This document shows, piece by piece, positions 36,560-64,000 of a stretch of 64,000 nt of DNA; the first letter of the stretch is position 1, and every line of letters starts with the position of its first letter. The stretch is from Antedon mediterranea. Lineage: Eukaryota > Echinodermata > Crinoidea > Comatulida > Antedonidae. Where the stretch lies: positions 17,613,001 to 17,677,000 of the forward strand of contig NC_092673.1 of NCBI RefSeq assembly GCF_964355755.1. The letters run 5' to 3'. The position numbers and the translations under genes were made by a program. A model generated the notes under the pieces. The model was not told the origin of the DNA, did no database searches, and saw nothing but the letters and a program-made list of their open reading frames with translations.

Positions 36560-36560
36560 C

Positions 36561-39500: not shown

Positions 39501-39863
39501 GGTATTGTACTACCTTACTTTATGATACATTTATTAATAGACTAAAATGCACTGCTTCCCCAGGGCTGTTAGTCAGGGTATTTGTGTGGGGTATTGTACT
39601 ACCTTACTTTATGATCCATTTATTAATAGACTAAAATGCACTGCTTCCCCAGGGCTGTTAGTCAAGGGTACTTGTGTGGGGTATTGTACTACCTTACTTT
39701 ATGATCCATTTATTAATAGACTAAAATGCACTGCTTCCCCATGGCTGTTAGTCAAGGGTACTTGTGTGGGGTATTGTACTACCTTACTTTATGATCCATT
39801 TATTAATAGACTAAAATGCACTGCTTCCCCAAGGCTGTTAGTCAGGGTATTTGTGTGGGGTAT
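36561..39863 (+). repeat. 89-bp satellite, about 37 copies
   Basis: The unit starts TTTATGATCCATTTATTAAT, continues AGACTAAAATGCACTGCTTC, CCCAGGGCTGTTAGTCAGGG, TATTTGTGTGGGGTATTGTA and ends CTACCTTAC. Because 89 is not a multiple of three, reading frames cycle through three phases and produce 88-codon ORFs every three units; these are not genes. Variants (CCCAGCAGGGCTG, TGTACTGC, CATGGCTG with TCAAGGGTACTTG) mark sub-blocks. 37930-38285 and 38286-38640 are two copies of the same four-unit block. Confidence 0.97.
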
Positions 39864-43439: not shown

Positions 43440-44811
43440 AGTCATCTTCATTCAGTAACGCCAACATACAGGTCATCTTCATGCAGTAACACCAGCATAC
43501 AGGTCATCTTCATTCAGTAACACCAGCATACAGTTCATCTTCATTCAGTAACACCATCATACAGGTCATCTTCATTCAGTAACACCAGCATACAGGTCAT
43601 CTTTATTCAGTAACACTGGCATACAGGTCATCTTCATTCAGTAACACCAGCATACAGGTCATCTACATTCAGTAACACCAGCATACAGGTCATCTTCATT
43701 CAGTAACACCAGCATACAGGTCATCTCTTCATTCATTAACACCAGCATACAGGTCATCTCTTCATTCAGTAACACCAGCATACAGGTCATCTTCATTCAG
43801 TAACACCAGCATACAGGTCATCTTCATTCAGTAACACTGGCATACAGGTCATCTTCATTCAGTAACACCAGCATACAGGTCATCTTCATTCAGTAACACC
43901 AGCATACAGGTCATCTTCATTCAGTAACACCAGCGTACAGGTCATCTTCATTCAGTAACACCAGCATACAGGTCATCTTCATTTATTAACACCAGCATAC
44001 AGGTCATCTTCATTCAGTAACACCGGCATACAGGTCATCCTTTATTCAGTAACACCAGCATACAAGTCATCTTCATTCAGTATACACCAGCAAACAGGTC
44101 ATCTTCATTCAGTAACGCCAGCATACAGGTCATCTTCATGTAGTAACACCAGCAAACAGGTCTTCTTCATTCAGTAACGCCAGCATACAGGTCATCTTCA
44201 TTCAGTAACACTGGCATACAGGTCATCTTCATTCAGTAACACTGGCATACAGGTCATCTTCATTCAGTAACACCAGCATACAGGTTATCTACATTCAGTA
44301 ACACCAGCATACAGGTCATCTTCATTCAGTAACACCAGCATACAGGTCATCTTCATTCAGTAACACCAGCATACAGGTCATCTTCATTCATTTACACCAG
44401 CATACAGGTCATCTTCATTCAGTAACACCGGCATACAGGTCATCTTCATTCAGTAACACCAGCATACAGGTCATCTTCATTCATTTACACCAGCATACAG
44501 GTCATCTTCATTCATTAACACCGGCATACAGGTCATCTTCATTCAGTAACACCAGCATACAGATCATCTTCATTCAGTAACACCAGAATACAGGTCATCT
44601 TCATTCAGTAACACTGACATACAGGTCATCTTCATTCAGTAACACCAGCATACAGATTATCTTCATTCAGTAACACCAGAATACAGGTCATCTTCATTCA
44701 GTAACACCAGAATACAGGTCATCTTCATTCAGTAATGCCAGCATACAGATCATCTTCATTCAGTAACACCAGCATACAGATCATCTTCATTCAGTAATGC
44801 CAGCATACAGA
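43440..44811 (+). repeat. 31-bp satellite, about 44 copies
   Basis: The unit is CAGGTCATCTTCATTCAGTA followed by ACACCAGCATA. Common variants are ACTGGCATA, ACCGGCATA, CATTTACACC, CAGATCATC and ATCTCTTC. The array ends about 75 bp before the gene B start exon and would lie inside its first intron. Confidence 0.97.
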
Positions 44812-44886: not shown

Positions 44887-44973
44887 AACAGAATGTGTAG
44901 GCTTACTTTTACACTAGAAGCTATCAGTATTAATAATTGTTAAATGAACACACTTTATTTTTGAAATGGAAAG
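44887..44973 (+). CDS. Gene B exon 2: 5' UTR plus start codon (MER)
   Basis: The coding part is 44966-44973 (ATGGAAAG, then GTACGT). It encodes Met-Glu and two bases of Arg, exactly as in gene A. The acceptor CATATTTTCAG at 44886 sets the proposed 5' edge. Confidence 0.65.
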
Positions 44974-47900
44974 GTACGTTTGTTTTTTATTTCAAATCCA
45001 ACAAAAATAACTGTAACGGTTAAAAACAAATTAAAATGTTTGAATAGTTAGCAATACTTTAAAACTTTCTTAAAAGATTATGAAATCATAAATATTACAA
45101 TTAAAGGGCTCATTCTCATCAAATATAATGATTATTTCCATCAATCATCATTTTCATAATATAATGTAATAATTCATTATTTCTTACATTTTAACAGGAA
45201 CAAATTAGAAGAAGCTTTGTTGTACACGTGTGATTTGCAAACAATTAAACACATTTGTAAGACGCAACCAGATCTTGTGAAATCTATCAATGAGGTATTT
45301 AAAACAAGATGTACATTATTTTTATAATATTATCAAATAAGAAATTTAATTAAAGTTTAAAATTATAGAGATTGTAATTTTCTTTATTATTTATTATAAC
45401 ATTTTTTTATATAATGAATTACAATTATTTTGCAATATCACACTAATGATGTTGGTAAGACCTGCATGCACTGATTAACCACATTAGGCTAAAAATAATA
45501 ATATAAATACACACTGATGATGGGGATAACCTGCATGTACTGATTAACCACATTAGGCTAAAAATAATAATATAAATACACACTGATGATGGAGGTATAA
45601 CCTGCATGTACTGATTAACAACATTATGCTAAAAATAATAATATAAATACACACTGATGATAGGGGTATAACCTGCATGCACTGATTAACCACATTAGGC
45701 TAAAAATAATAATATAAATACACACTGATGATGGAGGTATAACCTGCATGTACTGATTAACCACTTTAGGCTAAAAATAATAATATAAATACACACTGAT
45801 GATGGGGGTATAACATGCATGTACTGATTAACAACATTAGGCTAAAAATAATAATATAAATACACACTGATGATGGGGGTATAACCTGCATGCACTGATT
45901 AACAACATTAGGCTAAAAATAATAATATAAATACACACTGATGATGGGGGTATAACCTGCATGTACTGATTAACCACATTAGGCTAAAAATAATAATATA
46001 AATACACACTGATGATGGGGGTATAACCTGCATGCACTGATTAACCACATTAGGCTAAAAATAATAATATAAATACACACTGATAATGGGGGTATAACCT
46101 GCATGTACTGATTAACCACATTAGGCTAAAAATTATAATATAAATACACACTGATGGGTATGGCAAGCCTCAGCTGTCTGCAGTATTCGAAATATTATAT
46201 TATTATATCATTTTCACGCTACATCACAAGAGAGGACTCAATCAGATATAAAGCAAGCAGCAATTTTAGGACTGAGAGACTGACGTTTTGCTAAAATGCA
46301 TACTCGACTATAGTTTATAGGTCCCAGCTGCTGGACCCAAAAAACGTCTGGGAAAAGTGTCTATGAGGGCTCACGGTTGAACGATTTTGGATTCTTGCCC
46401 TTTGATTGGTTGACTTCAAGGCAAATGGTTTAACCTAAATTTGTTATCGTATCTAGCTTAACTTAATTATGATATTAATTTCATTGGGTGTTAAAAATCA
46501 GTACCAAAAGTATGTACCAACTTTCTCTTCCATTGAGTATAAATTCTAGAAGTTGCACTTAATTTACTGAAATTTCTCATTACTTATATGTAAATTCATT
46601 AAACTGCTTATTGGCCTCATATTGTTAACATCTAAACATTTGTTTGTACAATTTTATGAAATATGTATTTTATTAATGTTCAAATTTTGTGATTGATATT
46701 GTACAGTAAGTAGATTTTAATGATTACTTACATTAAGTAATAGGCTAACAATCACTAGATCTGATCCATGGTAATATATTATATTTTGTTTTCATTTTAT
46801 CAATAATGATAATTAGGATTTTATCACATTATTTAGCAGTAATTGTTGTTGTTTGTATTTACAAAAAAAACCAATTTTACATAATGTCTGTTGTCAGTAT
46901 TTATAAACTTCATTATGATTCCTTTCCAGAATGGGAACACGCCATTACATTCATATCTGGGGAGTGTATATACACCTACCTTAGAAATAGTGACATGTCT
47001 CATTCAGCATGGGACACCAGTAGCATTGCAAAATAAGGTAATGTACAGGGATTTGCTAGTGTAATAGGCTAATATTCTAAAGATATGCTGTGGTAGACCA
47101 TTCTATTTTGTTATACTCATTTATCAATAATGATAATTAGGATTTTATCACATTATTTAGCAGTAATTGTTGTTGTTTGTATTAACAAAAAAACCCAATT
47201 TCACATAATGTCTGTTGTCAGTATTTATAAAACTTCATTATGATTCCTTTCCAGGATGGTGAGACTCCATTACATTCATATCTGGGGAGTCTAAGCCTAT
47301 ATCCACTTCCCTTAGAAATAGTGACGTGTCTCATTCAGCATGGGGCACCATTAGCATTGCAAAATAAGGTAATGTACAGGGATTTGCTAGTGTAATAGGC
47401 TAACATTCTATAGATCTACTGAAGTAAACCATTCAATGAGAGAAAAAAGTAAGCACATTAACAAAAATCAAATTTGATTAAAACAAACCAAATAAAAAAA
47501 TAACTAAATAGTTATATATGATTTATGATAACTGATTTAAAGTGTACAGCTACCTATCATATAACATAAATCTTTAATTTTCTTAATGAACAATTTTTTT
47601 TATATATTCAGTTATTAATAAACAATTATTGACAATGGTCTAATTAATTGTAAATATGAAATAAAATGCGACAACTACTAAACAACTAAAAATGTTTATG
47701 TTAAAAAAATTAATAGAATCTGATTTTAATAAAAAATAATTATTAATTAATAACCTACTCCCTCCCTTACCTTACAAAAAATGCTTCTGTCAGTCTATCC
47801 AGCTAATTATAAACATGGCCTTAAACTGCATCTGGAGATCTTTTTCCAACCTAGGATATTTTTGTGCAAACATTTTGCCACAAAAGGAAGAGAAATGTAA

Positions 47901-50900
47901 ATAATATTTAGCCTTTAGTTAGTGGTTTCCAAAATTTAAAATGTTTGAGCAATGCAATTTAAAAAAGAAAGCTAATATGAAATTATTCTGTTCAAACTGA
48001 ATGCTTTAAGAACAGTTCCGTCTCTTATCTTATGACTTTTCGGGGAAAAATGACATTATTAAAGTTGCTATATAAAATTTGATACTAGTAAGTGTCAATA
48101 GATGGTTCTTAAATACATGACCTTTGATAAATAACTGAAAATTGCACTGTACACAAGGCAAATAAATACAGATATGATGGAATTTATGTAGTCAAATATA
48201 ATTTTCATCCTGAGAATTACCTTAATTTTGTTTATTGCATGGCATTGTTCACCAAATTCCTGTCTTGGTACAATTGATGATGGGATGGTATAAGGCTTCA
48301 TGATATGATATGATCTTCATCGAGGCAAATGATAAATTTGTTTTGATCGTCAATATAGTACACTGGTTTTCATTAGGTGTTAAAAATTAGTACCGAAAGT
48401 ATGTACCAACTTTCTCTACCATTGGGTTAAAATTCTAGAAGTTGAACTTAATTTACAGAAATTTCCCATTACGTAAATTTATATATAAATTCATTAAACT
48501 GCTTTGTGGCCTCATATTTTTAATATCTAAACATTTGTTTGTACAATTTTATGAAATATTTATTTTATAACGTTCAAATTTTGTGATTGATATTGTACAG
48601 TAAGTAGATTTTAATGATTACTTACATTAAGTAATAGGCTAACAATCACTAGATCTGATCCATGGTAATATATTATATTTTGTTTTCATTTATCAATAAT
48701 GATAATTAGGATTTTATCACATTATTTAGCAGTAATTGTTGTTGTTTATATTAACAAAAAACCCAATTTTACATAATGTCTGTTGTCAGTATTTATAAAC
48801 TTCATTATGATTCCTTTCCAGGATGGTGAGACTCCATTACATTCATATCTGAGGAATGTATATAGAATACATAGCTTAGAAATAGTGACTTGTCTCATTC
48901 AGCATGGGACACCAGTAGCATTGCAAAATAAGGTAATGTACAGGAATTTGCTAGTGTAATAATAAGCTAACATTATATAGATATGCTGAAGTAAACCATT
49001 CTATGAGAGAAAAAAGTAAGCACATTAACAAAAATCAAATTTGATTAAAACAAACCAAATAAAAAAATAACTAAATAGTTATATATGATTTATGATAACT
49101 GATTTAAAGTGTACAGTTACCTATCATATAACATAAATCTTTAATTTTCTTAATGAACAAAAAAATCTATTTTTTTTTATATATTCAGTTATTAAATAAC
49201 AATTATTGTCAACGGTCTAATTAATTGTAAATATGACGTAAATACTAAACAAATAAAAATATTTATGTTAAAAAAATTAATAGAATCTGATTTTAATAAA
49301 AAATAATTATTAATTAATAACCTACTCCCTCCCTTACCTTACAAAAAATGCTTCAGTCAGTGTATCCAGCTAATTATAAACATGGCCTTAAACTACATCT
49401 GGAGATCTTTTTCCAACCTAGGATCTTTTTATGCAAATATTTTGCCACAAAAGGAAGAGAAATGTAAATAATGTTTAGCCTTTTAGTTAGTGGTTTCCAA
49501 AATTTAAAATGTTTGAGCAATGCAATTTAAAAAAGAAAGCTAATATGAAATTATTCTTTTCAAACTGAATGCTTTAAGAACAGTTCCGTCTCTTATCTTG
49601 TGACTTGTTGGGGAAAAATGACATTATTAAAGTTGCTATATAAAATGTGATACTAGTAGTGCCAATAGATGCTCCTTAAATACATGACCTTTGGTAAATA
49701 ACTGAAAATTGTTTAAGTACAAAGCAAATAAATACATATATGTTGGAATTTATGTTGTCAAATATAATTGTCATCCTGAGAATTAACTTAATTTTGTTCA
49801 TTACATGTTATTGTTCACCAAATTCCTGTCTTGGTACATTTTATTATGAGATGGTATCAGACTTCATGATATGATTTTCATTAAGGCAAATGGTTTAAAC
49901 TAAACTTGTTATCGTTAATATCGAACTTAGCCTAATTATGATATTGATTTCATTAGGTGTTAAAAATCAGTACCGAAAGTATTTACCAACTTTCTCTACC
50001 ATTGAGTATAAATTCTAGAAGTTGCACTTAATTTACTGAAATTTCCCATTACCTAAATTTATATGTAAATTCATTAAACTGCTTATTGGTCTCATATTGT
50101 TAACATCTAAACATGTATTTGTACAATTTTATGAAATATGTATTTTATTAATGTTCAAATTTTGTGATTGATATTGTACAGTAAGTCGATTTTAATGATT
50201 ACTTACATTAAGTAATAGGCTAACAATCACTAGATCTGATCCATGGTAATATATTATATTTTGTTTTCATTTTATCAATAATGATAATTAGGATTTTATC
50301 ACATTATTTTGCAGTAATTGTTGTTGTTTGTATTTACAAAAAAAAAACAATTTCACATAATGTCTGTTGTCAGTATTTATAAACTTCATTATGATTCCTT
50401 TCCAGTCTGGTGACACTCTATTACATTCATATCTGGGGAGTGGATATAAACCTACCTTAGAAATAGTGACGTGTCTCATTCAGCATGGGGTACCATTAGC
50501 ATTGGAAAATAAGGTAAATGTACAGGAATTTGCTAGTGTAATAGGCTAACATTATATAGATATGCTGAAGTAAACCATTCAATGAGAGAAAAAAGTAAGC
50601 ACATTAACAAAAATCAAATTTGATTAAAACAAACCAAATAAAAATAGTTATATATGATTTATGATAACTGATTTAAAGTGTACAGTTACCTATCATATAA
50701 CATAAATCTTTAATAATAATAAATGAAAACTTATATAGCGCCGGTATCCTCCACCCATGTGGCGCTCATGGCGCTTTGTGCATTAACAACGTGCGAGAAC
50801 ATCAGCGAATAGCGACGTCTTTAGGTTGGTCTTGAAACTGTTTAGACTAGTTGAGCATTTAACTGTTGCTGGTAAGCTGTTCCATACACTTGCGGCCGCA

Positions 50901-53900
50901 ACGAAAAAAGATCTCTGACCCCACTGATTTTTCGCTCTACGCTCTTGAAGAAGGTTTTGTGACAATGATCGTAGGCCTCTGCGGGATGATTCGTAACGAT
51001 CCACAAGGTCAGATAAATAAGCAGGAGCACTGTCATTTAGGATCTTGAATACAAACAACGCAAGTTTGTACTTAATACGTTGTTGAACAGGCAACCAATG
51101 CAAATCCATCAGGACAGGAGTTATGTGAGCGTTTGATTTTGTATAAGTTACAATTCTAGCTGCCATATTTTGCAAGCGCTGCAAACGTTGTATTTGAGAT
51201 TTTGGTATGCCAAACAACAAGGCATTACCAATGTCAATTTTAGAAGTGACAAATGAGTGTACAATCAATTCAGCTGTTTTCTTGTTAAGATTACCGCGAA
51301 TACGACCAAGGTTCCTAATCGATATGCATGCTGCTTTGGATACAGTTGTTATTTGTGCTTCCATAGTGAGATTACTATCCAGCATGATTCCCAGATTCCG
51401 GACCACCGATGAGGGAGCGATGTTAGAGTTTCCGATTCTGAAATGTGTGATGTTGATTTTGGAGATGTTACCTTTAGACCCGACGATAATAAACTCTGTC
51501 TTTCCATCATTCAACTTTAGGTAATTTGTTGTCATCCAATTGCGAACATCTTCTATACAGGCTTCCATCTTACTGATTGCTGCAGCAACATCCCTTTCCA
51601 CTGGATTTACTGACACATAAATCTGTGTATCATCTGCATAGAAATGGAAATGTAGACTGTGTTTGCGAATAATGTCACCAAGGGGAAGCGTATAAATGGA
51701 AAACTGGCCAGGACCAATTACTGACCCCTGTGGTACACCATATTCCAGGCAAGCTTCATCTGAGAATGCATCATTGATACAGACTAGCTGACGTCTTCCT
51801 GTAAGATATGACTGGAACCAGTTAAGAGCAACACCATTTATGCCAATGCGATTTCTCAGACGGGTTATCAGTCTTCGGTGATCAACTGTATCAAACGCTG
51901 CTGACAAATCCAACAACACCAATAGCGTTATTTTCCCATCATTCATTCCTTGTAACAAATCATTCTGTACCTTTAAAAGGGAACTCTCCGTGCTATGACA
52001 TGCACGATATGCCGACTGGTAATTCTCATTTAAATTATGCTTTTGAAGATATGGAGTAATGCGTGATGTCACTACACGCTCCAGAGTCTTTCCAAGAAAA
52101 GAAAGATTCGACACCGGGCGGTAATTTTTCAGCGTGTTATGATCCAAGTTTTGCTTTTTTATTAAAGGACGAACGTGAGCAATTTTCAGTTCATCTGGCA
52201 CTATGCCGGTATTAAGAGAATGGTTAATGATTTCCGTTATTATTGGAACGACTGCGTCTATACACTTCTTCAGTATAGAAGTAGGAACTGGATCTAACCT
52301 GCATGATTTTGTTGGTGATTTCATCAGAATGTTGCGGATCTCATCTTGAGATGCTGGTGTAAATGTTGTGAGATGCTGATGAACAGCTGTCACAGGCTCA
52401 TTAAATGACATGTCATCAATCTTGAAGTCGTCTCTGATGAAAAACTGACAGAACCTGTTCGCAAGATCTAAGTCAGAAAGACTATCTGAGAGAGGTGATA
52501 CCTGGCGATGATGAAGGAGTTGGTTAACAATTTTAAAAAGTCCTTTCTGATCTGCTGCATGTTCTTCACACAAGCCAATGTAGTAGTTGGCCTTTGCCTT
52601 TCTTACCATGGAATTTACATTCCTCTTCTGTGCAATGTAAGCTTGACGATCTATTTCCAGATGAGAGATTCTCCATTTCTTTTCAAGCTTACGCTTTGTT
52701 CTTTTCTCAGCATAGATGTCACTGTTATACCAACTAGTGTTTGGTCGGACCTTTACTGTTCTCTTTTTCGGTGGTGCGTGTTTGTCAAGAAGTTCACTCA
52801 AAGTGGTGACATATAGTCGTACTTTACTTGATAAATCAAGATTTGAGAGCGAAGTTCCGAGATCAGACTGTGTGATATCTTTACATAATGTCTCAAAATT
52901 TATAGCATTCCAATGACGAGTTTCGATGGATTTAGTGATTACGGGTGGCTTCTTGATAAGGAGATTACATGTGATTGCATAGTGATCTGATATACCATCA
53001 ATGACATTAAGGTTTGAGAAAACAGGAGGATCAGATGAACGAGTGATCAGCAAGTCTAATGTATGACCATGTCGGTGTGTAGGTGTAGACACATGCTGTT
53101 GAAGACTGCTTGCTGCAAGTAGATTCCGAAAATGAATTGCATCTGCATCATTTGGCATATCCACATGGATGTTAAAGTCTCCAACGAATAGTATGGGAGC
53201 CGGCTTCAATACATAGTGATCAACCAAAGTTGAGAATTCTTCAGTGAAAACATTTAGACTGCAACCCGTTGATTTGCTTTGAGGACGATATACTGCTACG
53301 AGGAAAACTGAGGATGCATTGCTGACTATTTCCACATTTAGCAGTTCAAATGATTTTGGTAATAATCCCGTGTCATAACATTTAACCGCTATGCTTTCCT
53401 TGTAAAGAAGTGCAACTCCACCACCTCTTTTAGTACTAGCACGGGGAGCATGTTTTAGAGAGTATCCGTTGGGTGTAATATTTCCTATAACTGATGTGTC
53501 TTCTGGTTTAAGCCACGTTTCCGAAAGGGCAACAACATCCAGATTATGTTCGATAACGAAATCCACAAATTCTGTTGTTTTGTTCCGAACGGATCTTGTA
53601 TTAATACAGCAAAATGTAATATTGTTTTTAGATAAGAGAGAGTTTGATGATAAGTCCGGAAATGATAGATTGTTTTTAGTGTGTTTGTTTGTTTGTTTGT
53701 CACGCCCAGCTCTTGTACCACGCCTGGTTTTTCTTTTTGGCCTCCTTGGTAATAGGTGGATACTACAGCTACTGGAGTTCAACTTAAAAGATTGTATAAT
53801 TAAGCAAGATTCTTCAGGAAGTTCACAACTGTTATTGTTGTTGGTTACACAGCCCTGTAAACCATGAAGAAACTCAGAGCTATAGCTAATTAGCATGACA

Positions 53901-56900
53901 ACAGCAGATCTTCAAGCATGAGGTGTACAAGGTCATTTACATAACAATATGCACAGTCAGATTGAAAGTACAGGGCTAGCTTCCCACTGATGCTAGTAGA
54001 CCATTGTTCTTGGGCAGTGATGAGTTTGAATTAAAACAATAAAGGCACAAGCAGGGCCTAGCTGAACTTCAGGAAACAACAAGAAAAACAACTGCGATTT
54101 ACTCCAAGATACGATTATTTCCACATAAGAAATTTGTGAATATATGGTGCTCAATTTGCTATTCCAGCATCCAGTAAAACTTATTTGATGAAAAAAACCA
54201 TCTGCAAACAGATACGAAGTTGTTATGCACAGAGCAATATAGAGCCGCCACATGGGCGCTGCAACACTCCTCCTCTTATTTAAGTTTCTTAATGAACAAA
54301 AAAATCTATATTTTTTTATATATTCAGTTATTAAATAACAATTATTGACAATGGTCTAATTAATTGTAAATATGAAATAAAATGCGACAACTACTAAAGA
54401 ACTAAAAATGTTTATGTTAAAAAATTAATAGAATCTGATTTTAATAAAAAATGATTATTAATTAATAATGTGCTCCTTCCCTTATCTTACAAAAAAAATG
54501 CTTCTGTCAGTCTATCCAGCTAATTATGAACATGGCCTTAAAGAAATCCTTTTCCAACCTAGGATCTTTTTGTGCAAACATTTTGCCACAAAATGAAGAG
54601 AAATGTAAACAATGGTTTGTTAGTTTTCAAAATCTAAATTGTTTAAGTAATGCAATTTAAAAAAGAAAGGTAATATGAAATTATTCTTTTCAAACTGAAT
54701 GCTTTTAAGAAAAGTTCCGTCTCTTATCTTATGACTTTTTTGGAAAAATGATTAAAATTAAAATATAATATACTAGTAAGTGCTCACAGATGCTTCTCGA
54801 ATTCATGAACTTTGGTAAATAACGGAAAATTGCACTGTACACAAAGCAATACAGATATGATGGAATTTATGTAGTCAAATATAATTGTCATCCTGAGAAT
54901 TACCTTAATTTTGTTTATTGCATGGTATTGTTCACCAAATTCCTGTCTTGGTACATTTGATGATGGGATGGTATCAGACTTCATGATATGATATGATCTT
55001 CATCGAGGCAAATGATAAATTTGTTTTGATCGTCAATATAGTACACTGGTTTTCATTTGGTGTTAAAAATTAGTACCGAAAGTATGTACCAACTTTCTCT
55101 ACCATTGGGTTAAAATTCTAGAAGTTGAACTTAATTTACAGAAATTTCCCATTACGTAAATTTATATATAAATTCATTAAACTGCTTTGTGGCCTCATAT
55201 TTTTAATATCTGAACATTTGTTTGTACAATTTTATGAAATATTTATTTTATAACGTTCAAATTTTGTGATTGATATTGTACAGTAAGTAGATTTTAATGA
55301 TTATTTACATTAAGTAATAGGCTAACAATCACTACCTGTAGATCTGATCCATGGTAATTATATTTCGTTTTCATTTATTAATAATGATAATTAGGATTTT
55401 ATCACATTATTTAGCAGTAATTGTTGTTGTTTATATTAACAAAAAACCCAATTTCACATAATGTCTGTTTTCAGTATTTATAAACATCATGATTATGATT
55501 CCTTTCCAGAATGATGACACTCTATTACATTCATATCTGAGTAGTGTATATCCACCTACCTTAGAAATAGTGACGTGTCTCATTCAGCATGGGACACAAG
55601 TAGCGTTGCAAAATAAGGTAAATGTACAGGGATTTGCTAGTGTAATAGGCTAACATTATATAGATATGCTGAAGTAAACCATTCAATGAGAGAAAAAAGT
55701 AACCACATTAACAAAAATCAAATTTGATTAAAACAAACCAAATAAAAAAATAACTAAATAGTTATATATGATTTATGATAACTGATTTAAAGTGTACAAA
55801 TCTTTAAGTTTCTTAATGAACAAAAAAATCTATTTTTGTTTATATATTCAGTTATTAAATAACAATTATTGACAATGGTCTAATTAATTGTAAATATGAA
55901 ATAAAATGGGACAACTACTAAACAACTAAAAATGTTTAGGTTAAAAAAATTAATAGAATCTGATTTTAATAAAAAAATAATTATTAATTAAAAACCTGCT
56001 CCCTCCCTTACCTTACAAAAAATGCTTCTGTCAGTCTATCCAGCTAATTATAAACATGGCATTAAACTACATCTGGAGATCCGTTTCCAACCTAGGATCT
56101 TTTTGTGCAAACATTTTGCCACAAAATGAAGAGAAATGTAAACAATGTTTTGTTAGTTTTCAAAATCTAAATTGTGTGAGTAATGCAATTTAAAAAAGAA
56201 AGGCAATATGAAATTATTCTTTTCGAACTGAATGCTTTTAAGAAAAGTTCCGTCTCTTATCTTATGACTTTTTTTGAAAAATGAATTCTCGTTAAAATAT
56301 AATATACTAGTAAGTGCTCACAGATGCTTTTTGAATACATAAACTTTGGTAAATAACTGAAAATTATACTGTACACAAGGCAAATAAATACAGATATGAT
56401 GGAGATCTGATCCATGGTAATATATTATATTTTGTTTTCATTTATCAATAATGATAATTAGGATTTTATCACATTATTTAGCAGTAATTGTTGTTGTTTG
56501 TATTAACAAAAAAACCCAATTTCACATATGTCTGTTGTCAGTTTATAAACTTCATGATTATGATTCCTTTTCAGGATGGTGACACCAGATCTGATCTATG
56601 TTAAGATATTCTATTTTGTTCTCATTTATCAATAGTTAACAATTAGGATTATTTACCACATTATTTAGCAGCAAAAAACAATTTCACATAATGTTTGTTG
56701 TCATTATTTATAAACTCCATTATGATTCCTTTCCAGTATGGTGACACTCCATTACATCCATATCTGAGGAGTGGATATACTGCACCTACCTTAGAAATAG
56801 TGACGTGTCTCATTCAGCATGGGGCACCAGTAGCATTGAAAAATAAGGTAAAGGGATTTGCTAGTGTAATAAGCTAACATTATATAGATCTGCTGAAGTA

Positions 56901-59900
56901 AACCATTTAATGAGAGAAAAAAGTAAGCACATTAACAAAAATCAAATTTGATTAAAACAAACCAAATAAAAAAATAACTAAATAGTTATATATGATTTAT
57001 GATAACTGATTTAAAGTGTACAGTTACCTATCATATAACATAAATCTTTAATTTTCTTAATGAACAAAAAAATCTATTTTTTTTATATATTCAGTCATTA
57101 ATTAACAATTATTGACAATGGTCTAATTAATTGTAAATATGAAATAAAATGCGACAACTACTAAACAACTAAAAATGTTTATGTTAAAAAAATTAATAGA
57201 ATCTGATTTTAATAAAAAAATAATTATTAATTAATAACCTACTCCCTCCCTTACCTTACAAAAAATGCTTCTATCAGTCTATCCAGCTAATTATAAACAT
57301 GGCCTTAAACTACATCTGGAGATCCTTTTCCAACCTAGGATATTTTTATGCAAACATTTTGCCACAAAAGGAAGAGAAATGTAAATAATATTTAGCCTTT
57401 AGTTAGTGGTTTCCAAAATTTAAAATGTTTGAGCAATGCAATTTAAAAAAGAAAGCTAGTATGAAATTCCTTTCAAACTGAAAATAATGATAATTAGGAT
57501 TTTATCACATTATTTAGCAGTAATTGTTGTTGTTTGTATTAACAAAAAAAAACCCAATTTTCACATAATGTCTGTTGTCAGTATTTATAAACTTCATTAT
57601 GATTCCTTTCCAGGATGGTGACACTCTATTACATTCATATCTGAGGAATGATAGAATACCTACCTTAGAAATAGTGACTTGTCTCATTCAGCATGGGACA
57701 CCATTAGCATTGCAAAATAAGGTAATGTACAGGGATTTGCTAGTGTAATAAGCTAACATTATATAGATATGCTGTGGTAAACCATTCTATTTTGTTCTAC
57801 TCATTTATTTATTAATAATGATAATTATGATTATTTACCACAATATTTAGCAGCAATTGTTGTTGTTTGTATTGAAAAAAAACAAACAATTTCACATAAT
57901 GTCTGTTGTCAGTATTTATAAACTTTATTATGATTCCTTTCCAGTATGGTAACACTCCATTACATTCATATCTGTGGAGTGTACATACACCTACCTTAGA
58001 AATAGTGACGTGTCTCATTCAGCATGGGGCACCAGTAGCATTGCAAAATAAGGTATTGTACAGGGATTTGCTAGTGTAATAGGCTAACATTCTATAGATA
58101 TGATGTGGTAAACCATTCTATTTTGTTCTACTCATTTATTAATAATGATAATTATGATTATTTTACCACAATATTTAGCAGCAATTGTTTTTGTTTGTAT
58201 TGACAAAAAAAACAAACAATTTCACATAATGTCTGTAGTCAGTATTTATAAACTCCATTATGATTCCTTTCCAGAATGGTGACACTCTATTACATTACTG
58301 TCTGAGGAGAGGATATCCACCTACCTTAGAAATAGTGACGTGTCTCATTCAGCATGGGACACCAGTAGCATTGCAAAATGAGGTAATGTACAGGGATTTG
58401 CTAGTGTAATAGGCTAACATTATATAGATCTGCTGAAGTAAACCATTCTATTTTGTTCTACTCATTTATTAATAATGATAATTATGATTATTTACCACAA
58501 TATTTAGTAGCAATTGTTGTTGTTTGTATTGACAAAAAAAACAAACAATTTCACATAATGTCTGTTGTCAGTATTTATAAACTCCATTATGATTCCTTTC
58601 CAGAATGGTGACACTCTATTACATTCATATCTGATGATTGGATACCCTACCTTAGAAATAGTGACGTGTCTCATTCAGCATGGGACACCATTAGCATTGC
58701 AAAATAAGGTAAATGTACAGGGATTTGCTAGTGTAATAGGCTAACATTGTATAGATATGCTGTGGTAAACCATTCTATTTTGTTCTACTCATTTATTAAT
58801 AATGATAATTATGATTATTTACCACAATATTTAGTAGCAATTGTTGTTGTTTGTATTGACAAAAAAAACAAACAATTTCACATAATGTCTGTTGTCAGTA
58901 TTTATAAACTCCATTATGATTCCTTTCCAGAATGGTGACACTCTATTACATTCATATCTGGGGACAGGATATACACCTACCTTAGAAATAGTGACGTGTC
59001 TCATTCAGCATGGGGTACCAGTAGCATTGCAAAATAAGGTATTGTACAGGGATTTGCTAGTGTAATAGGCTAACATTCTATAGATCTGCTGAAGTAAACC
59101 ATTTAATGAGAGAAAAAAGTAAGCACATTAACAAAAATCAAATTTTATTAAAAGAAATCAAATTAAAATAATAACTAAACAGTTATATATGATTTATGAT
59201 AACTGATTTAAAGTATACAGTTATTCATCAAATAACATATATCTTTTTTCTTAATGAACAAAAACAATCTACTTGTAATTTTTTATATTCAGGTGAATCA
59301 CTATAATTTTGTTTAAATATTTTTACCATAAAATAAATATATATTGGTCATATCAGGGAGTTGTAAAATGACAACTCCCTGGTCATATGTAGCTGTAAAG
59401 ATAACAACAATTGAAAATGGTCTAATTAATTATAAATATGAAATAAAATGTATGTTGACAAATAATAGAATAGCAAACAAAAATGTTTGTGTTATTGTTA
59501 ACAAAATTAATAGAATCTGATTTTAATAAAAAAGAATTATTAATTGTTAATAACTTGCTCCCTCCCTTACCTTCCAAAAAAATACTTCTGTCAGTATATC
59601 CAGCTAATTACAGTTTGAATATGGCCTTTTAAAGAGATCTTTTTCCAGCATTTTTTTTTTTTGCAAATATTTTGCCACAAATGGAAGAGAAATGTAAATA
59701 ATGTTTAGTTTATAGTGGTTTCCAAAATCTAAAATTGTTCGAACAATGCAATTAGACATTTTTTTATATTCAGGTGAATCAGTATAATTTTGTTTACATA
59801 TTTTTGACCGTAAAACAAATATAAATTGGTCATATGTAGCTGTAAAGATAACAATGATTGACAATGGTCTAATTAATTGTAAAGATGAAATAAAATGGGA

Positions 59901-62900
59901 CAACTACATTGATTAATAATAAAATAACAAATAAAAATGCTTATGTCAAAAAAATTAATAGAATCTGATTTTAATAAAAAAATAATTATTAATTAATAAC
60001 CTGCTCCCTCCCTTACCTTACAAAAAAATGCTTCTGTAATAGTAATAGGCTAACAATCTTTAGATCTGATCCATGGTAAGATATTCTATTTTGTTCTCAT
60101 TTATCAATCATGTCAATTAGGATTATTGACCACATTATTTAGCAGTAATTCTTGCTATGGTTTGGGTTGACAAAAAAAAACCCAATTTCACATAATGTCT
60201 GTTGTCAGTATTATACACCAACAACATTGCAAAATAAGGTAATGTACAGGGATTTGCTAGTGTAATAAGCTAACATTATATAGATCTGCTGAAGTAGACC
60301 ATTTATTGAGAGAAAAAAGTAAGCACATTAACAAAAATAAAATTTGATTAAAACAAACCAAATAAAAAAATAACTAACTAGATTTAAACTCGTCACTACG
60401 GACGAGTTAGGTTATCCGCAGCGCAAAAGGCATGTGCACGTCATACGTTAGAATATTACGCGCAGAAAAACGTTTACGCCATTGAAAAAATGATAGTGCG
60501 CCCTCTATTTTGCGTCACGTCTGAGTATATACGGTATACACTATATACTATATACGTATAACCATACAGTGCAGAATAGTGAAAAGAAGTGACCAAAGTT
60601 ATTAACGCTTTTGAACATGATGACGTAATAACAATTTTAAAAATTGTAAATCATGCGAAAGATAATTGATTGACCTAAACAATATAAAAAATGGAGGGCA
60701 ATGGAATACGGATAATTGGAGATGTGCTCTATTAAATGTGATGAGCTATGACGAAAGAGACAAAAATCCTATTATTTATATTCGAGTGGCCATACGATGA
60801 CGTCACAATGTCCGGTTAGTCATATTGATGCATGATTTGATATCTGCAACTCATCTACTACCAGAATATGTAATTTTAAAAAAGTTCACCACGTAGTTTA
60901 GAATTTATGACTGTTTAAAAAAAGGCATAATTTTGACAAATTTTTGAACTTTTTCATCAAAAATGCGCGTAAATTGTTTAATTCTACGTGCTCGTATGAC
61001 GTGATTTTAAGTCGAAATTGTTTGAAAGTTGGTAAATTTTCTAAAAAAGACAGGAAAAACAAAAATCAAGCAAAAAAATGATGTTTTTGCGCTACGTGCG
61101 CACGTGCGCGTAAAAAAATTGCGCACGCGTGGGAATTTTTGAAATGCTCAAAATGACATGAAACGCGTAGAAAGTTGATTAGATATTGATTTTTCGCATT
61201 TTGAAATTTTAAACGCGCGTAACTTTTTGTGAAACATGCCATTTTTAATCCATAGAAAGTTTGCGCTTGATATGACTTAAAGTTTCACCAAGTTTCAATA
61301 CAAAACGACTTTTAGTTTTTAATATATGATCAATCATTGAAATTCATAAAATCGCGCGTAACTTACGCTGCGCGAATCAAAGTTCATAAAAAAAAGTTTC
61401 TTGCACATCTACAGCTACAGGGCTATCTTTTGACAAAGTTATACAATCATATGTTGGCCAGAATTAGAGATACGCTGCGAACAAAATTCGTGGAAAGAAA
61501 GAAGAACATAGGAAAAAAATGGGTTATCCGCCAAGTGCGGATAACCAAATAGTTATATATGATTTATGATCTGATTTAAAGTGTACAGTTACCTATCATA
61601 TGACATAAATCTTTAATTTCCTTAATGAACAAAAAAATCTATTTTTTTTATATATTCAGTTATTAATTAACAATTATTGACAATGGTCTAATTAATTGTA
61701 AATATGAAATAAAATGCGACAACTACTAAACAACTAAAAATGTTTATTAAAAAAAATAATAGAATCTGATTTTAATAAAAAATAATTATTAATTAAAAAC
61801 CTGCTCCCTCTCTTACCTTACACAAAATGCTTCTGTCAGTCTATCCAGCTAATTATGAACATGGCCATAAAGAAATCCTTTTCCAACCTAGGATCTTTTT
61901 GTGCAAACATTTGCCACAAAATGAAATGTAAACAATGTTTTGTTAGTTTTCAAAATCTAAATTGTTTGAGTAATGCAATTTAAAAAAGAAAGGTAATATG
62001 AAATTATTCTTTTCAAACTGAATGCTTTTAAGAAAAGTTCCGTCTCTTATCTTATGACTTTTTTGGAAAAATGATTTCTCGCTAAAATATAATATACTAG
62101 TAAGTGCTCACAGATGGTTCTTAAATACATGACCTTTGGTAAATGACTGAAAATTGTTTAAATACAAAGCAAATAAAATACAGATATGTTGGAATTTATG
62201 TAGTCAAATATAATTGTCATCCTGAGAATTACCTTAATTTTGTTTATTGCATGGTATTGTTCACCAAATTCCTGTCTTGGTACAATTGATGATGGGATGG
62301 TATCAGGCTTCATGATATGATATGATTTTCATCGAGGCAAATGGTTTAAACTAAATTTGTTATCGTTAATATCTAACTTAGCTTAATTGGTTATCCGCAC
62401 TTGGCGGATAACCTCTTGTTATTGTCAGGATCTTTTTTTTTTTTTTTTTTTTTTTCTATGTTATTCTTCTTTCTTTTCCAGAATTTTGTTGGTCGCATAT
62501 CTCAAATTATGGCCAGCATAAGATTGTATAACTTTGTCATAAGATTGACTTGTAGCTGTAGATGTGCAAGAAACTTTTTTTTTTAAATTTTGAGTCGCGC
62601 AGCGTAAGTTACGCGCGATTTTGTGAATTTTGCGTATTTTACATAGATTGAAAACCAAAAAGCAATTTTAATTGAAACTTGGCAAAAGTGTAATTTATAT
62701 CATGCGCTAACCTTCTATGGATTTAAAATGGCACTTTTCCAAAAAGTTACGCGCGCACGCGCGTTTAAAATTTCAAAATGCGAAAATTCAATTTCTAATC
62801 AACTTTCTACGCGTTTCAGGTCATTTTGAGCATTTAAAAAATTCCAACGCGTGCGCATTTTTTTTACGCGCGCGTGCGCACGCAGCGCAAAAACATCTTT

Positions 62901-64000
62901 TTTTTGCTTGATTTTTGTTTTTCCTGTCTTTTTTTAGAAAATTTACCAACTTTCAAACAATTTCGACTTAAAATCACGTCATACGAGCACGTAGAATTGA
63001 ACAATTTGCGCGCGTTTTTGATGAAAATGTTCAAAAATTCATGAAAATTATGCCTTTTTTAAAACAGTCATAGATTGTAAACTACGAGGTGAACTTTTTT
63101 TAAATTACACATTCTGGAAGTTGATGAGTTGTAGATATCGAATCATGCATCGATATGGCTAACAGGACATAGTGACGTCATCGTATGGCCACTCAAATAT
63201 AAAATATAGGATTTTTGTCTCTTTCGTCATAGCTCATCACATTTAATAGAGCGCATCTCCACTTATCCTAATTCCATTTCCCTCCATTTTTTTATATTGT
63301 CTATGCCAATCAATTATCTTTCGCATGATATACCGTTTTTAAAATTGTGATGACGTCATCATGTCCAAAAGCGTCAATAACTTGGGCCACTTATTTTCAC
63401 ATATTCTTCACTGTATGTAGTACGTATACAATATATAGTGTATACTGTGTATACTTAGACGTGACGTAAAATAGAGAGCGCACTAACATTTTTTCAATGG
63501 CGTAATGGTTTTCTCTGCGCAATATTCTAACGTATGACGTGCACGTGGCGTTTGCTCTGCGGATAACCTAACTCGTCCGTAGTGACGAGTTCAAATCTAG
63601 TTATGATATTGGTTTCATTGGGAGTTAAAAATCAGTACCGAAAGTATGTACCAACTTTCTCTACCATTGAGTATAAATTCTAGAAGTTGCACTTAATTTA
63701 CTGAAATTTCCCATTACCTAAATTTATATGTAAATTCATTAAACTGCTTATTGGTCTCATATTGTTAACATCTAAACATGTATTTGTACAATTTTATGAA
63801 ATATGTATTTTGTTAATGTTCAAATTTTGTGATTGATATTGTACAGTAAGTAGATGTTAATGATTACTTACATTAAGTAATAGGCTAACAATCACTAGAT
63901 CTGATCCATGGTAATATATTATATTTTGTTTTCATTTATCAATAATGATAATTAGGATTTTATCACATTATTTAGCAGTAATTGTTGTTATTTATATTAA
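44966..64000 (+). CDS. Ankyrin gene B, 5' part of a spliced gene (at least 434 aa so far)
   Basis: The coding exons seen are 44966-44973, 45198-45294, 46930-47037, 47255-47368, 48822-48932, 50406-50513, 55510-55617, 56737-56847, 57614-57721, 57945-58052, 58275-58382, 58604-58708 and 58931-59038. All join in one frame. The protein begins with a 35-residue cap closely related to gene A, followed by eleven ankyrin repeats of 35-38 residues. Consensus: xGxTxLHSYL, a variable 4-8 residue segment, then TLEIVTCLIQHG, xPVALQNK. Half the repeats have TLLH instead of the canonical TPLH. All repeat exons are phase 0-0, so any can be gained, lost or skipped without a frameshift. No C-terminal cap is in the window, and the intron sequence at 63601-64000 is that which precedes other repeat exons, so at least one more is expected just outside. 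Likely an intracellular protein-binding solenoid; partner unknown. Confidence 0.8.
45198..45294 (+). CDS. Gene B exon 3: N-terminal ankyrin cap
   Basis: Acceptor TTTTAACAG, donor GTATTT. It reads (R)NKLEEALLYTCDLQ, TIKHICKTQ, PDLVKSINE, one codon longer than in gene A. The KTQPDLVK block is nearly the same in both genes. Confidence 0.87.
45439..46160 (+). repeat. 71-bp minisatellite, about ten copies
   Basis: The unit is ACACTGATGATGGGGGTATA, ACCTGCATGTACTGATTAAC, CACATTAGGCTAAAAATAAT, AATATAAATAC. It lies in the intron between the cap exon and the first repeat exon of gene B and has no counterpart in gene A. Confidence 0.93.
46161..46929. other. Gene B intron with transposon remnant
   Basis: From about 46400 it matches the AGTACC(A/G)AAAGTATGTACC... 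AAATTCTAGAAGTTG family also found at 35240-35420 and in all long gene B introns. The standard CACATTATTTAGCAGTAATTG and acceptor region follow. No gene. Confidence 0.6.
46930..47037 (+). CDS. Gene B ankyrin repeat 1 (36 codons)
   Basis: Acceptor CTTTCCAG, donor GTAATG. NGNTPLHSYL, variable GSVYTP, TLEIVTCLIQHGT, PVALQNK. Confidence 0.9.
47255..47368 (+). CDS. Gene B ankyrin repeat 2 (38 codons)
   Basis: Acceptor CTTTCCAG, donor GTAATG. DGETPLHSYL, variable GSLSLYPLP, LEIVTCLIQHGA, PLALQNK. The loop is two residues longer than usual. Confidence 0.9.
47400..48821 (+). repeat. Long gene B intron unit, copy 1
   Basis: It contains, in order, GAGAGAAAAAAGTAAGCACA, TTAATAAAAAATAATTATTA, AATGCTTCTGTCAGTCTATC, a remnant of the dispersed transposon (AGATGGTTCTTAAATACATG, TGGAATTTATGTAGTCAA, AGTACCGAAAGTATGTACC) and the pre-exon region. 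Copies follow at 48960-50405, 50514-55509 (split by a LINE) and 55625-56574, and in part at 56855-57613 and 59050-64000. Adjacent copies are nearly identical. Confidence 0.85.
48822..48932 (+). CDS. Gene B ankyrin repeat 3 (37 codons)
   Basis: Acceptor CTTTCCAG, donor GTAATG. DGETPLHSYL, variable RNVYRIHS, LEIVTCLIQHGT, PVALQNK. Confidence 0.9.
50406..50513 (+). CDS. Gene B ankyrin repeat 4 (36 codons)
   Basis: Acceptor CTTTCCAG, donor GTAAAT. SGDTLLHSYL, variable GSGYKP, TLEIVTCLIQHGV, PLALENK. The first residue is Ser and the motif is TLLH. Confidence 0.9.
50714..54278 (-). mobile_element. Full-length L2-like LINE, 3565 bp, TTTAA target duplication
   Basis: The flanks read CTTTAA before the insert and TTTAAG after it. 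Homologous introns without the insert read ATCTTTAAG (55800) or ATCTTTAAT (49137), so TTTAA (50709-50713, 54279-54283) is the duplicated target. The 3' end on the minus strand has GGCGCTATATAAGTTTTCAT followed by (TTA)n, the tail style of L2 elements. It sits in one intron copy only, so it came after the exon duplications. Confidence 0.92.
50783..53896 (-). CDS. L2-like LINE endonuclease-reverse transcriptase, intact 1037 aa
   Basis: One open frame from ATG 53896. After a basic stretch (RRPKRKTRRGTRAGRDK, about residues 51-67) comes the AP endonuclease (about 93-310: CINTRSVRNK, SETWL with catalytic Glu, VAVYRP, VGDFNIHVD, GISDHYAI). The reverse transcriptase follows (about 575-830: LKNYRPVSNLSFLGKTLERV, DLSAAFDTVDH with catalytic Asp, YGVPQGSVIGPGQFSIYT, YADDTQIY near 752). 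The C-terminal region has LHWLPVQQRIKYKLALFVFK, a signature of the L2/CR1 branch. All catalytic motifs are present, so it may be an active copy. No separate ORF1 is evident in the 380-base leader (53897-54278), though an 86-codon minus ORF lies there. The gene is antisense to gene B. Confidence 0.93.
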   Translation of the reverse strand: MLISYSSEFLHGLQGCVTNNNNSCELPEESCLIIQSFKLNSSSCSIHLLPRRPKRKTRRGTRAGRDKQTNKHTKNNLSFPDLSSNSLLSKNNITFCCINTRSVRNKTTEFVDFVIEHNLDVVALSETWLKPEDTSVIGNITPNGYSLKHAPRASTKRGGGVALLYKESIAVKCYDTGLLPKSFELLNVEIVSNASSVFLVAVYRPQSKSTGCSLNVFTEEFSTLVDHYVLKPAPILFVGDFNIHVDMPNDADAIHFRNLLAASSLQQHVSTPTHRHGHTLDLLITRSSDPPVFSNLNVIDGISDHYAITCNLLIKKPPVITKSIETRHWNAINFETLCKDITQSDLGTSLSNLDLSSKVRLYVTTLSELLDKHAPPKKRTVKVRPNTSWYNSDIYAEKRTKRKLEKKWRISHLEIDRQAYIAQKRNVNSMVRKAKANYYIGLCEEHAADQKGLFKIVNQLLHHRQVSPLSDSLSDLDLANRFCQFFIRDDFKIDDMSFNEPVTAVHQHLTTFTPASQDEIRNILMKSPTKSCRLDPVPTSILKKCIDAVVPIITEIINHSLNTGIVPDELKIAHVRPLIKKQNLDHNTLKNYRPVSNLSFLGKTLERVVTSRITPYLQKHNLNENYQSAYRACHSTESSLLKVQNDLLQGMNDGKITLLVLLDLSAAFDTVDHRRLITRLRNRIGINGVALNWFQSYLTGRRQLVCINDAFSDEACLEYGVPQGSVIGPGQFSIYTLPLGDIIRKHSLHFHFYADDTQIYVSVNPVERDVAAAISKMEACIEDVRNWMTTNYLKLNDGKTEFIIVGSKGNISKINITHFRIGNSNIAPSSVVRNLGIMLDSNLTMEAQITTVSKAACISIRNLGRIRGNLNKKTAELIVHSFVTSKIDIGNALLFGIPKSQIQRLQRLQNMAARIVTYTKSNAHITPVLMDLHWLPVQQRIKYKLALFVFKILNDSAPAYLSDLVDRYESSRRGLRSLSQNLLQERRAKNQWGQRSFFVAAASVWNSLPATVKCSTSLNSFKTNLKTSLFADVLARC
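55510..55617 (+). CDS. Gene B ankyrin repeat 5 (36 codons)
   Basis: Acceptor CTTTCCAG, donor GTAAAT. NDDTLLHSYL, variable SSVYPP, TLEIVTCLIQHGT, QVALQNK. Gly2 of the turn is Asp. Confidence 0.9.
56575..56585 (+). pseudogene. Broken ankyrin exon: only the first 11 bases remain
   Basis: A normal acceptor (CTTTTCAG) is followed by GATGGTGACAC and then directly by CAGATCTGATC, sequence that belongs to the mid-intron of the unit (AGATCTGATCCATGGTAA elsewhere). The rest of the exon and its donor are deleted. This is the join of an unequal exchange or deletion between units. Confidence 0.8.
56737..56847 (+). CDS. Gene B ankyrin repeat 6 (37 codons)
   Basis: Acceptor CTTTCCAG, donor GTAAAG. YGDTPLHPYL, variable RSGYTAP, TLEIVTCLIQHGA, PVALKNK. 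The first residue is Tyr. Confidence 0.9.
57614..57721 (+). CDS. Gene B ankyrin repeat 7 (36 codons)
   Basis: Acceptor CTTTCCAG, donor GTAATG. DGDTLLHSYL, variable RNDRIP, TLEIVTCLIQHGT, PLALQNK. It is the first of five exons spaced 331, 330, 329 and 327 bp apart. Confidence 0.9.
57945..58052 (+). CDS. Gene B ankyrin repeat 8 (36 codons)
   Basis: Acceptor CTTTCCAG, donor GTATTG. YGNTPLHSYL, variable WSVHTP, TLEIVTCLIQHGA, PVALQNK. Confidence 0.9.
58275..58382 (+). CDS. Gene B ankyrin repeat 9 (36 codons)
   Basis: Acceptor CTTTCCAG, donor GTAATG. NGDTLLHYCL, variable RRGYPP, TLEIVTCLIQHGT, PVALQNE. It ends in Glu instead of Lys and has YCL for SYL. Confidence 0.9.
58604..58708 (+). CDS. Gene B ankyrin repeat 10 (35 codons)
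   Basis: Acceptor CTTTCCAG, donor GTAAAT. NGDTLLHSYL, variable MIGYP, TLEIVTCLIQHGT, PLALQNK. The loop is one residue shorter than usual. Confidence 0.9.
58931..59038 (+). CDS. Gene B ankyrin repeat 11 (36 codons)
   Basis: Acceptor CTTTCCAG, donor GTATTG. NGDTLLHSYL, variable GTGYTP, TLEIVTCLIQHGV, PVALQNK. Last intact repeat exon in the window. Confidence 0.9.
59039..60216. other. Gene B intron, rearranged long-unit sequence
   Basis: It contains two partial copies of the long-unit block (ACTTGCTCCCTCCC... at 59547 and CCTGCTCCCTCCC... at 60000). A hairpin sits at 59354-59381 (CAGGGAGTTGT and its exact complement, 6-base loop). No gene. Confidence 0.6.
60217..60238 (+). pseudogene. Broken ankyrin exon: only the last ~22 bases remain
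   Basis: The pre-exon intron words run up to GTTGTCAGTATT and then jump to ACACCAACAACATTGCAAAA, TAAG, GTAATG. The acceptor and the first four-fifths of the exon are gone, while the donor is intact. The wording (CAACAACATTGC) is nearer to gene A exons (TCAACAACATTGC) than to gene B ones (GTAGCATTGC). Confidence 0.75.
60378..61546 (-). mobile_element. Helitron-like element, copy 1 (1169 bp)
   Basis: Read on the minus strand it begins GGTTATCCGCACTTGGCGGA, an inverted pair, and ends TGCGGATAACC, a hairpin ACTCGTC/GACGAGT, then TTTAAATCTAG. Flanks compared with an empty homologous intron (AACTAAATAG) show only a shared TT/AA at the junction and no longer duplication. Subterminal inverted repeats, a hairpin close to a CTAG end and insertion at TT fit Helitron-like non-autonomous elements of the Helentron kind. 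No Rep/helicase is encoded; the interior is rich in CGCG words. A 71-codon ORF at its edge is not called. Confidence 0.6.
61547..62388. other. Gene B intron between the two Helitron-like copies
   Basis: It is ordinary long-unit intron (ACTACTAAACAACTAAAAATG, TTCCGTCTCTTATCTTATG, TGGAATTTATGTAGTCAA), uninterrupted across both insertions. No gene. Confidence 0.7.
62389..63600 (+). mobile_element. Helitron-like element, copy 2 (1212 bp), inverted to copy 1
   Basis: It begins GGTTATCCGCACTTGGCGGA and ends with GCGGATAACCTAACTCGTCC, a short loop, GACGAGTT, AAATCTAG. The empty homologous intron at 49920-49950 reads CCTAATTATGATATTG, and here the two sides are CTTAATT and TTATGATATTG, so again only TT is shared. 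The interior is collinear with copy 1 in reverse, with scattered differences and a long T-run near its 5' end (62431-62455). Confidence 0.6.
63601..64000 (+). repeat. Start of a further gene B unit, cut by the window end
   Basis: It matches 49940-50340, the 400 bases that lead up to ankyrin repeat 4 (AGTACCGAAAGTATGTACC, CACTAGATCTGATCCATGG, CACATTATTTAGCAGTAATTG). A repeat exon is expected about 100 bases beyond the window. Confidence 0.85.

Follow-up and report, generated by a model that had tools for sequence, protein, structure and literature searches.

The closest described precedents for the gene analysed here are, as far as the available parts of the reports go, the ROCO genes of brown algae, with one LRR per exon, and the ankyrin repeats of fungal NLR genes. 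According to the accessible sections on brown algae, each LRR is encoded by its own 72 bp, phase 2 exon, these exons are shuffled and under positive selection, alternative splicing of the repeat exons is a feature of the genes, the positively selected sites lie on the predicted binding face, and the products are proposed to be immune receptors, as we likewise propose here (PMC11378527). Our locus has in common with these LRR-ROC-COR genes the ROC-COR part, one repeat per exon of constant phase and exon shuffling; it differs in that its exons encode ankyrin repeats and are mostly 105-114 bp in phase 0, in that the algal genes appear in those sections as plain LRR-ROC-COR genes, and in that most genes of one algal species are reportedly dispersed, whereas here they form a cluster (PMC11378527). 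For fungal NLRs, the available part of the report describes polymorphism in repeat number and positively selected sites that lie mainly on the concave side of the ankyrin repeats, puts the share of highly conserved repeats at 0.8% for metazoa, suggests concerted evolution for genes with highly conserved ANK, TPR or WD repeats that are near-identical (e.g. Podospora Pa_3_8560), and draws a link to non-self recognition and cell death (PMC4986451). The fungal proteins have NACHT or NB-ARC where ROC-COR is found here, and one repeat per exon with duplicated introns is not described in that part of the report (PMC4986451). In our genes, repeat number changes between paralogues and nonsynonymous difference (pN) is in excess, with the putative binding face placed by alignment to DARPins alone. 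In animals, DAPK1 (metazoan Roco group 3) contains a kinase, ankyrin repeats, ROC-COR and a death domain and has a role in cell death (PMC6337361, PMC4917528). Judged by the portions of these reports at hand, the present gene, like DAPK1, has a putative death-fold domain after its ankyrin repeats and ROC-COR, and differs in having no kinase before ROC-COR, a DED-like module rather than a death domain, and a place in a large family with hypervariable repeats. Lineage-specific expansions in marine invertebrates are described for TRADD-N proteins with death-like domains (PMC8195603), and exon shuffling for repeat expansion in some domain families (PMC1553488), both in the parts of the papers available. 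Among the open-access titles and abstract openings listed, none described a family of ANK-ROC-COR-DED genes from animals in which each repeat has its own exon, which is not proof of its absence from print. How recognition diversity arises in animals without antibodies is a long-standing question, and here the repeat exons, their introns and the selection acting on them can be read directly.

The window, i.e. the whole 64-kb stretch of DNA that was analysed (G000:C4:17613001-17677000), has a GC content of 32% and comes from a genome of 354 Mb in 18 contigs. The gene towards its end lies on the plus strand and begins with a short exon 1 (44966..44973; ATGGAAAG, with the start codon and a GT donor), which joins in frame with exon 2 (45198..45294), a conserved N-terminal cap with 39 matches in the genome including itself. 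Eleven ankyrin exons follow, namely exons 1 (46930..47037, 108 bp, phase 0-0), 2 (47255..47368, 114 bp), 3 (48822..48932, 111 bp), 4 (50406..50513, 108 bp), 5 (55510..55617, 108 bp), 6 (56737..56847, 111 bp), 7 (57614..57721, 108 bp), 8 (57945..58052, 108 bp), 9 (58275..58382, 108 bp), 10 (58604..58708, 105 bp) and 11 (58931..59038, 108 bp) of the array. Their limits were set at the last TTTCCAG or TTTTCAG before a shared core and the first AAGGT or GAGGT after it, with the frame ignored, and 11 of the 11 proved to be 105-114 bp long, divisible by 3, open and to encode one ankyrin repeat each, in agreement with an earlier note on this DNA that had described eleven single-repeat, phase 0-0 exons. 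The same note had described duplicated, near-identical introns, and this also holds: those of the youngest block measure 223, 222, 221 and 222 bp (with one donor moved by 6 bases), and array introns differ by 3.5% on average.

The gene had been taken to span 44966-64000; the start stands, whereas the end is simply the window edge. A dead exon remnant, consisting of a 3' end with its donor, lies at 60225..60277 within the intron that runs from 59039 to the window end (59039..64000), and the gene goes on beyond (loci L001-L003). In continued window coordinates, five further clean ankyrin exons start at 64068, 64952, 65279, 65609 and 65938 (the last ending at 66045), followed by another dead remnant at 66881, an exon at 69423 that is interrupted by about 2.8 kb holding LINE-like open frames, a C-terminal half-repeat cap (73061-73145), ROC exons from 80789, a COR part reaching to about 88458 and a DED-like exon of 540 bp (92871-93410), with the stop at about 93580. 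A charged linker is encoded between COR and the DED-like exon, as read in the 30 kb past the window. Joined together, the first 22 exons (exon 1, exon 2, 16 ankyrin exons, the cap and three ROC exons) give a single unbroken frame of 743 codons. The second part of the gene, from ROC-COR to the DED-like exon, is likewise open across the joined exons, with a placeholder for one base unaccounted for at the 81709-85241 junction and with a weak donor at 86268 that was picked because it keeps the frame. The model begins MERNKLEE and passes directly into ankyrin repeats, and no signal peptide was apparent by eye in the first exons.

The joined frame matches the Pfam families Ank_2 (E 3e-23, above cut-off), Roc (4.1e-14, 53.3 bits; cut-off 27) and COR-A (4.4e-13, 49.8 bits; cut-off 35.3), and it also matches DED with E 0.0021 and 18.7 bits, which is below the curated score of 35.9; in the raw open frames, with the exons unjoined, COR-A and DED matched weakly. 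The ROC GTPase is followed directly by COR, as is typical of the Roco family, and contains a predicted P-loop, GQEGVGKT. When the middle part was compared with the PDB at E up to 0.1, 29 of the 30 sequences listed were, by name, bacterial Roco-type or LRRK2 chains. A kinase before ROC-COR was not found, Pfam giving ankyrin families alone on the N-terminal 218 residues, and a C-terminal death domain was not detected at the thresholds used, at which weak DED matches appeared instead. Neither NACHT nor NB-ARC was found by Pfam at E up to 0.01, which gave Roc, COR-A and Ras, and an NLR (STAND) receptor was rejected on this ground. The sequence of the C-terminal module taken singly had no relevant chain in the PDB. 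At an E limit of 5, a profile built from nine copies of the C-terminal exon in the genome matched 10 sequences of the PDB, nine of them caspase-8, with E values of 0.0095-0.13 and in the N-terminal part of that protein, which we take to be its tandem DED. Run singly against Pfam, eight diverged copies matched DED at E <0.1 in five cases and above the cut-off in none, and no DED was listed for the other three. We call the module DED-like because its Pfam score is below the cut-off and the single sequence has no PDB match, while the profile matches caspase-8. By its predicted domain order, the window gene is an ANK-ROC-COR-DED-like Roco gene whose C-terminal module weakly resembles the death-effector domains of caspase-8.

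The gene is one of many. When the genome was searched with the N-terminal exon, 39 of the 53 candidates scored were matches. One lies on C9, and the other 38 fall within 3.8 Mb of C4 (15.9-19.7 Mb). All 150 ankyrin matches scored, from 453 candidates, fall in this region of C4, and a 26-base core of the ankyrin exon occurs 228 times in the genome (204+24) at ≤3 mismatches, with all places listed within the same region and no match for the core read backwards as a control. Among the places listed, ankyrin exons come after 25 of the 38 first exons; what comes next is a ROC exon in 18 of these 25, a DED exon in four and nothing listed in three, and wherever an ankyrin exon follows a ROC or DED place it is preceded by a new first exon. 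Two or more ROC or DED places occur in several of the runs between first exons, which extend up to 220 kb; the search has therefore probably missed some of the first exons. Both of the two other gene loci examined downstream have matching ROC-COR and DED-like exons. DED-like modules as such are very common in this genome (437 candidates, 150 scored), with many outside the cluster on C3, C9 and C10 (C1-C11). The window itself contains an older and more diverged member of the family (15292-20945), with a first exon at 15292 that is also present about 345 kb upstream, ankyrin exons at 16155-20256, of which the match at 16443 ends early, and a cap at 20859-20945; no ROC, COR or DED match to go with it was found within the window.

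What the earlier note could not see is that ROC-COR-DED-like exons follow the array, which forms the N-terminal portion of their gene, and that this gene belongs to a large cluster; it is this setting that suggests a function, and a plain gene with one repeat per exon is an incomplete description given the ROC-COR-DED-like exons downstream. One repeat per exon also occurs in vertebrate ankyrins and is not new in itself, and the genes could be ordinary scaffolds that bind self proteins, their repeats varying with these self partners. That layout has a precedent, and ankyrin-1/2 are among the PDB matches of the repeats, but the linkage to ROC-COR-DED-like exons and a large tandem family with exon exchange and diversifying change count against scaffolds of this kind, and we regard them as an improbable account.

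For a wider view of the repeats, 95 ankyrin matches were collected from 10 stretches of the cluster, of which 88 with an HMM score of at least 60 were kept and seven dropped, one of the seven having an in-frame stop (1/95 overall). All 88 kept exons are divisible by 3 by construction, because boundaries were sought in frame only, and one of them (L012:3545) is without the usual repeat start. They comprise 61 distinct DNA sequences that encode 61 distinct proteins; hence, no pair is separated by silent changes alone. Variation is concentrated in part of the repeat, with entropies of 2.4 bits at residue 1, 1.4 at residue 3, 0.9 at residue 5, 1.35 at residue 8, 2.5 at residue 11 and 2.2 at residue 12, and of 1.6-2.7 bits at the well-filled columns of a loop before PTLEIV that also varies in length; alignment columns 32 and 34 vary as well, less strongly. 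The near-invariant positions are residues 2, 4, 6, 7, 9 and 10, together with most of the second helix. The earlier note had named residues 1-3, 5 and 8-17 as variable, which is right for 1, 3, 5, 8, 11, 12 and the length-variable loop that follows, and wrong for residues 2 (G) and 9-10 (YL), which hardly change.

In alignments to PDB chains, the repeats match DARPins and ankyrin-1/2, and residues 1, 3, 11 and 12 correspond to DARPin positions 3, 5, 13 and 14, which we take to be library positions, six in all with positions 2 and 33. These four residues have a mean entropy of 2.10 bits compared with 0.71 overall, a value reached by 58 of 100,000 random sets; for all six DARPin positions, 657 of 100,000 random sets did as well, positions 2 and 33 being near-constant here. 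As in the designed libraries, a fixed framework thus carries variable residues at library positions, whereas the arrays are natural, have a longer variable loop between the helices and keep two of the six positions near-constant. The diverse binding surfaces suggested by the earlier note are in keeping with this to the extent that the likely binding surface appears to be diversified.

The variable residues differ from one another chiefly by nonsynonymous change. Among 47 distinct exon-intron units, with a mean intron difference of 0.035, the codons picked as variable have a pN of 0.337 and a pS of 0.075. Since picking variable codons is circular, the residues named beforehand by the earlier reader were used in a further test, in which alignment columns 1-3, 5 and 8-18 were compared among 39 units outside the window gene; pN was 0.266 and pS 0.067 at these residues, and 0.044 and 0.031, respectively, at the other codons of the same units, whose introns differ by 0.032. 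Over the whole exon, with no columns picked, the 47 units give a pN/pS of 2.4. Five loci taken one at a time all show the excess at picked codons; it is smallest in the window gene, at 2.3-fold (pN 0.32, pS 0.14), reaches 5.1-fold at most, and persists on omission of any one of nine loci. The ratios are rough, because the counts ignore recombination. Third codon positions are less variable than the first two in most, not all, variable codons, and the third base of codon 24, a silent site, is highly variable (0.52). In the variable codons, synonymous change lies far below nonsynonymous change, which speaks against a mutator aimed at them; such a mutator nevertheless keeps some probability, as the synonymous difference there is roughly double that of the introns.

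Drift does not explain the pattern at the variable codons. Were the ankyrin exons dispensable and drifting under relaxed constraint in a decaying tandem array, as the dead remnants, the one split exon, the single in-frame stop among 95 ankyrin matches and the upstream copy in the window with a cap and no ROC might suggest, pN would be expected to lie close to pS or to the introns. At the pre-named residues, however, it is four times pS and eight times the intron value, and the other codons remain near intron level; given pN relative to the introns, relaxed constraint is not favoured and we consider it very unlikely.

The cluster also records how repeats are gained, lost and traded, and the tandem expansion put forward in the earlier note is borne out by block repeats, hybrid units and comparisons of paralogues. 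Its proposal that single exons can be added or lost in frame is likewise seen between paralogues: two genes 1.93 Mb apart (L006 and L007) are 99.5% identical over 7.8 kb, yet have 8 and 9 exons. In the shorter one, the exon at C4:17440313 (L006:7014) is a hybrid that equals L007:6994 through the variable part and L007:7320 from the exon end on; as every differing column fits one or other parent, the crossover is placed within the exon. In the window gene, the block of five exons opened by ankyrin exon 7 (57614-59038) recurs 7.3 kb further on with four exons (64952-66045), ankyrin exon 10 being absent from the copy. The unit at 65609 in this copy matches the unit at 58275 (ankyrin exon 9), its 5' parent, in the first 15 differing columns and that at 58604 (ankyrin exon 10), whose intron is the likely 3' parent, in the last three, which fits a hybrid from a crossover in the intron, the 3' parent resting on three sites. 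These comparisons show exon number being altered by unequal exchange. Furthermore, 12.6 kb from 44895 on recurs 345 kb upstream at 99.5%, and the two copies part ways within the array. In a single case, one exon DNA is common to L006/L007 and L011, and the shared sequence extends 18 bases into the upstream flank and 39 or 3 bases into the downstream flank. At L008:1761-2681, four ankyrin exons identical in sequence lie in 271-bp units with introns shortened to 163 bp; they are possibly the youngest amplification in the cluster.

Exchange appears to reach across genes as well. Between the window gene and the L010 gene, array introns are 3.5% apart (96.5% alike), whereas the DNA downstream of the arrays has a mean identity of 84.6% over 7.8 kb aligned in 28 pieces, the twelve longest at 72-96%. 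For the window gene and the L007 gene, the downstream mean is 91.0% and the array introns are 3.5% apart (L006 and L007 units pooled), and for the L007 and L010 genes the values are 87.8%, inflated by a repeat, and 2.3%. As the array introns are closer than the downstream DNA, the arrays appear to have been exchanged between genes, and from these alignments they look homogenised across genes, with the exception of the variable codons. The near-identical copies might instead be alleles or misplaced repeats, with exon gain and loss either allelic or false. Copies that are 99.5% identical yet lie 345 kb and 1.93 Mb apart on one contig, and the four same-sequence exons in L008, are what such an assembly or haplotype artefact could produce; against it stand a hybrid exon in which all differing columns fit one or other parent, pN above pS at the picked codons within each of five loci alone, and other members that are far more diverged from the window gene downstream (the means of 91.0% and 84.6%). 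We hold an artefact to be quite unlikely, and if the near-identical copies are alleles, they show exon-number polymorphism directly.

Taken together, the array is probably the sensor domain of a rapidly diversifying family of intracellular Roco-type receptors. This reading is supported directly by the architecture, the cluster, the unequal exchange between paralogues and the nonsynonymous excess. The receptor would consist of a short N-cap, 16 ankyrin repeats, a C-cap, a ROC GTPase, COR, a linker and a tandem-DED-like module; a solenoid with a changing surface joined to a GTP switch and a death-fold-like module has the layout of a sensor for cell death or inflammation. Single-repeat exons, together with their introns, would be traded unequally within and between genes, shifting repeat number and order and keeping introns and the repeat framework uniform, and at about ten residues of each repeat diversifying selection would maintain the differences. 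If fungal NLRs and brown-algal ROCO genes are a guide, binding of a ligand by the ankyrin solenoid would switch ROC-COR, which in turn may expose the DED-like module and so engage a pathway of cell death or inflammation; we infer that the genes are expressed and that their products recognise ligands, switch with GTP and signal death. The cluster has the appearance of a family of internal sensors for non-self that diversify rapidly, and in it the molecular logic reported for brown algae and fungi is met in an animal, with a different sensor fold or switch and a death-effector-like module.

What such sensors would recognise can be read in more than one way. The arrays might encode individual identity and serve allorecognition or self/non-self typing, not pathogen sensing; fungal NLR genes whose repeats show these dynamics too are tied to non-self recognition in the available parts of the reports (PMC4986451, PMC1805685), and we rate this as unlikely. 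A bolder reading than that of a diversifying receptor family, offered tentatively and as possible rather than probable, is a deuterostome germline repertoire generator, in which a pool of single-repeat exons common to about 38 Roco death-receptor genes would supply genome-specific, natural DARPin-like solenoids to a caspase-8-type death switch for pathogen recognition or allorecognition. If true, the cluster would be a separately evolved animal counterpart of the brown-algal ROCO and fungal NLR systems, and splicing-based exon choice could multiply the repertoire further. The arrays would also offer a putative natural ankyrin binding library for comparison with designed ones, and individuals would be predicted to vary.

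Mobile and repetitive elements are interspersed with the genes. The intron between ankyrin exons 4 and 5 holds, on the minus strand, a LINE-like frame of 1042 codons (50783-53911) with endonuclease and reverse transcriptase recognised by eye, and reverse-transcriptase-like open frames of 979 and 399 codons lie at 29490-32429 and 17052-18251, also on the minus strand. An element of about 1.2 kb with GGTTATCCGC-like ends forms an inverted pair at 60390-61550 and 62390-63600, and a third copy lies at about L001:3040-4200 (all by eye). Tandem arrays occupy 36560-39863 (89 bp), 43441-44810 (31 bp) and 45434-46156 (71 bp), the last in the intron after exon 2, and an Rfam scan of the window gave no match. 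Elsewhere in the genome, C2 carries 12 clustered Hox matches (7.83-8.21 Mb); the 10 that were excised and translated resemble those of ambulacrarians, which makes the animal probably an echinoderm or a hemichordate. COX1, cellulose synthase and GFP had no match, a weak negative in a genome that is searched one exon at a time. A stretch of the L007 gene matches L028:8098-9097 eight times with an 88-bp step, apparently an intronic tandem repeat.
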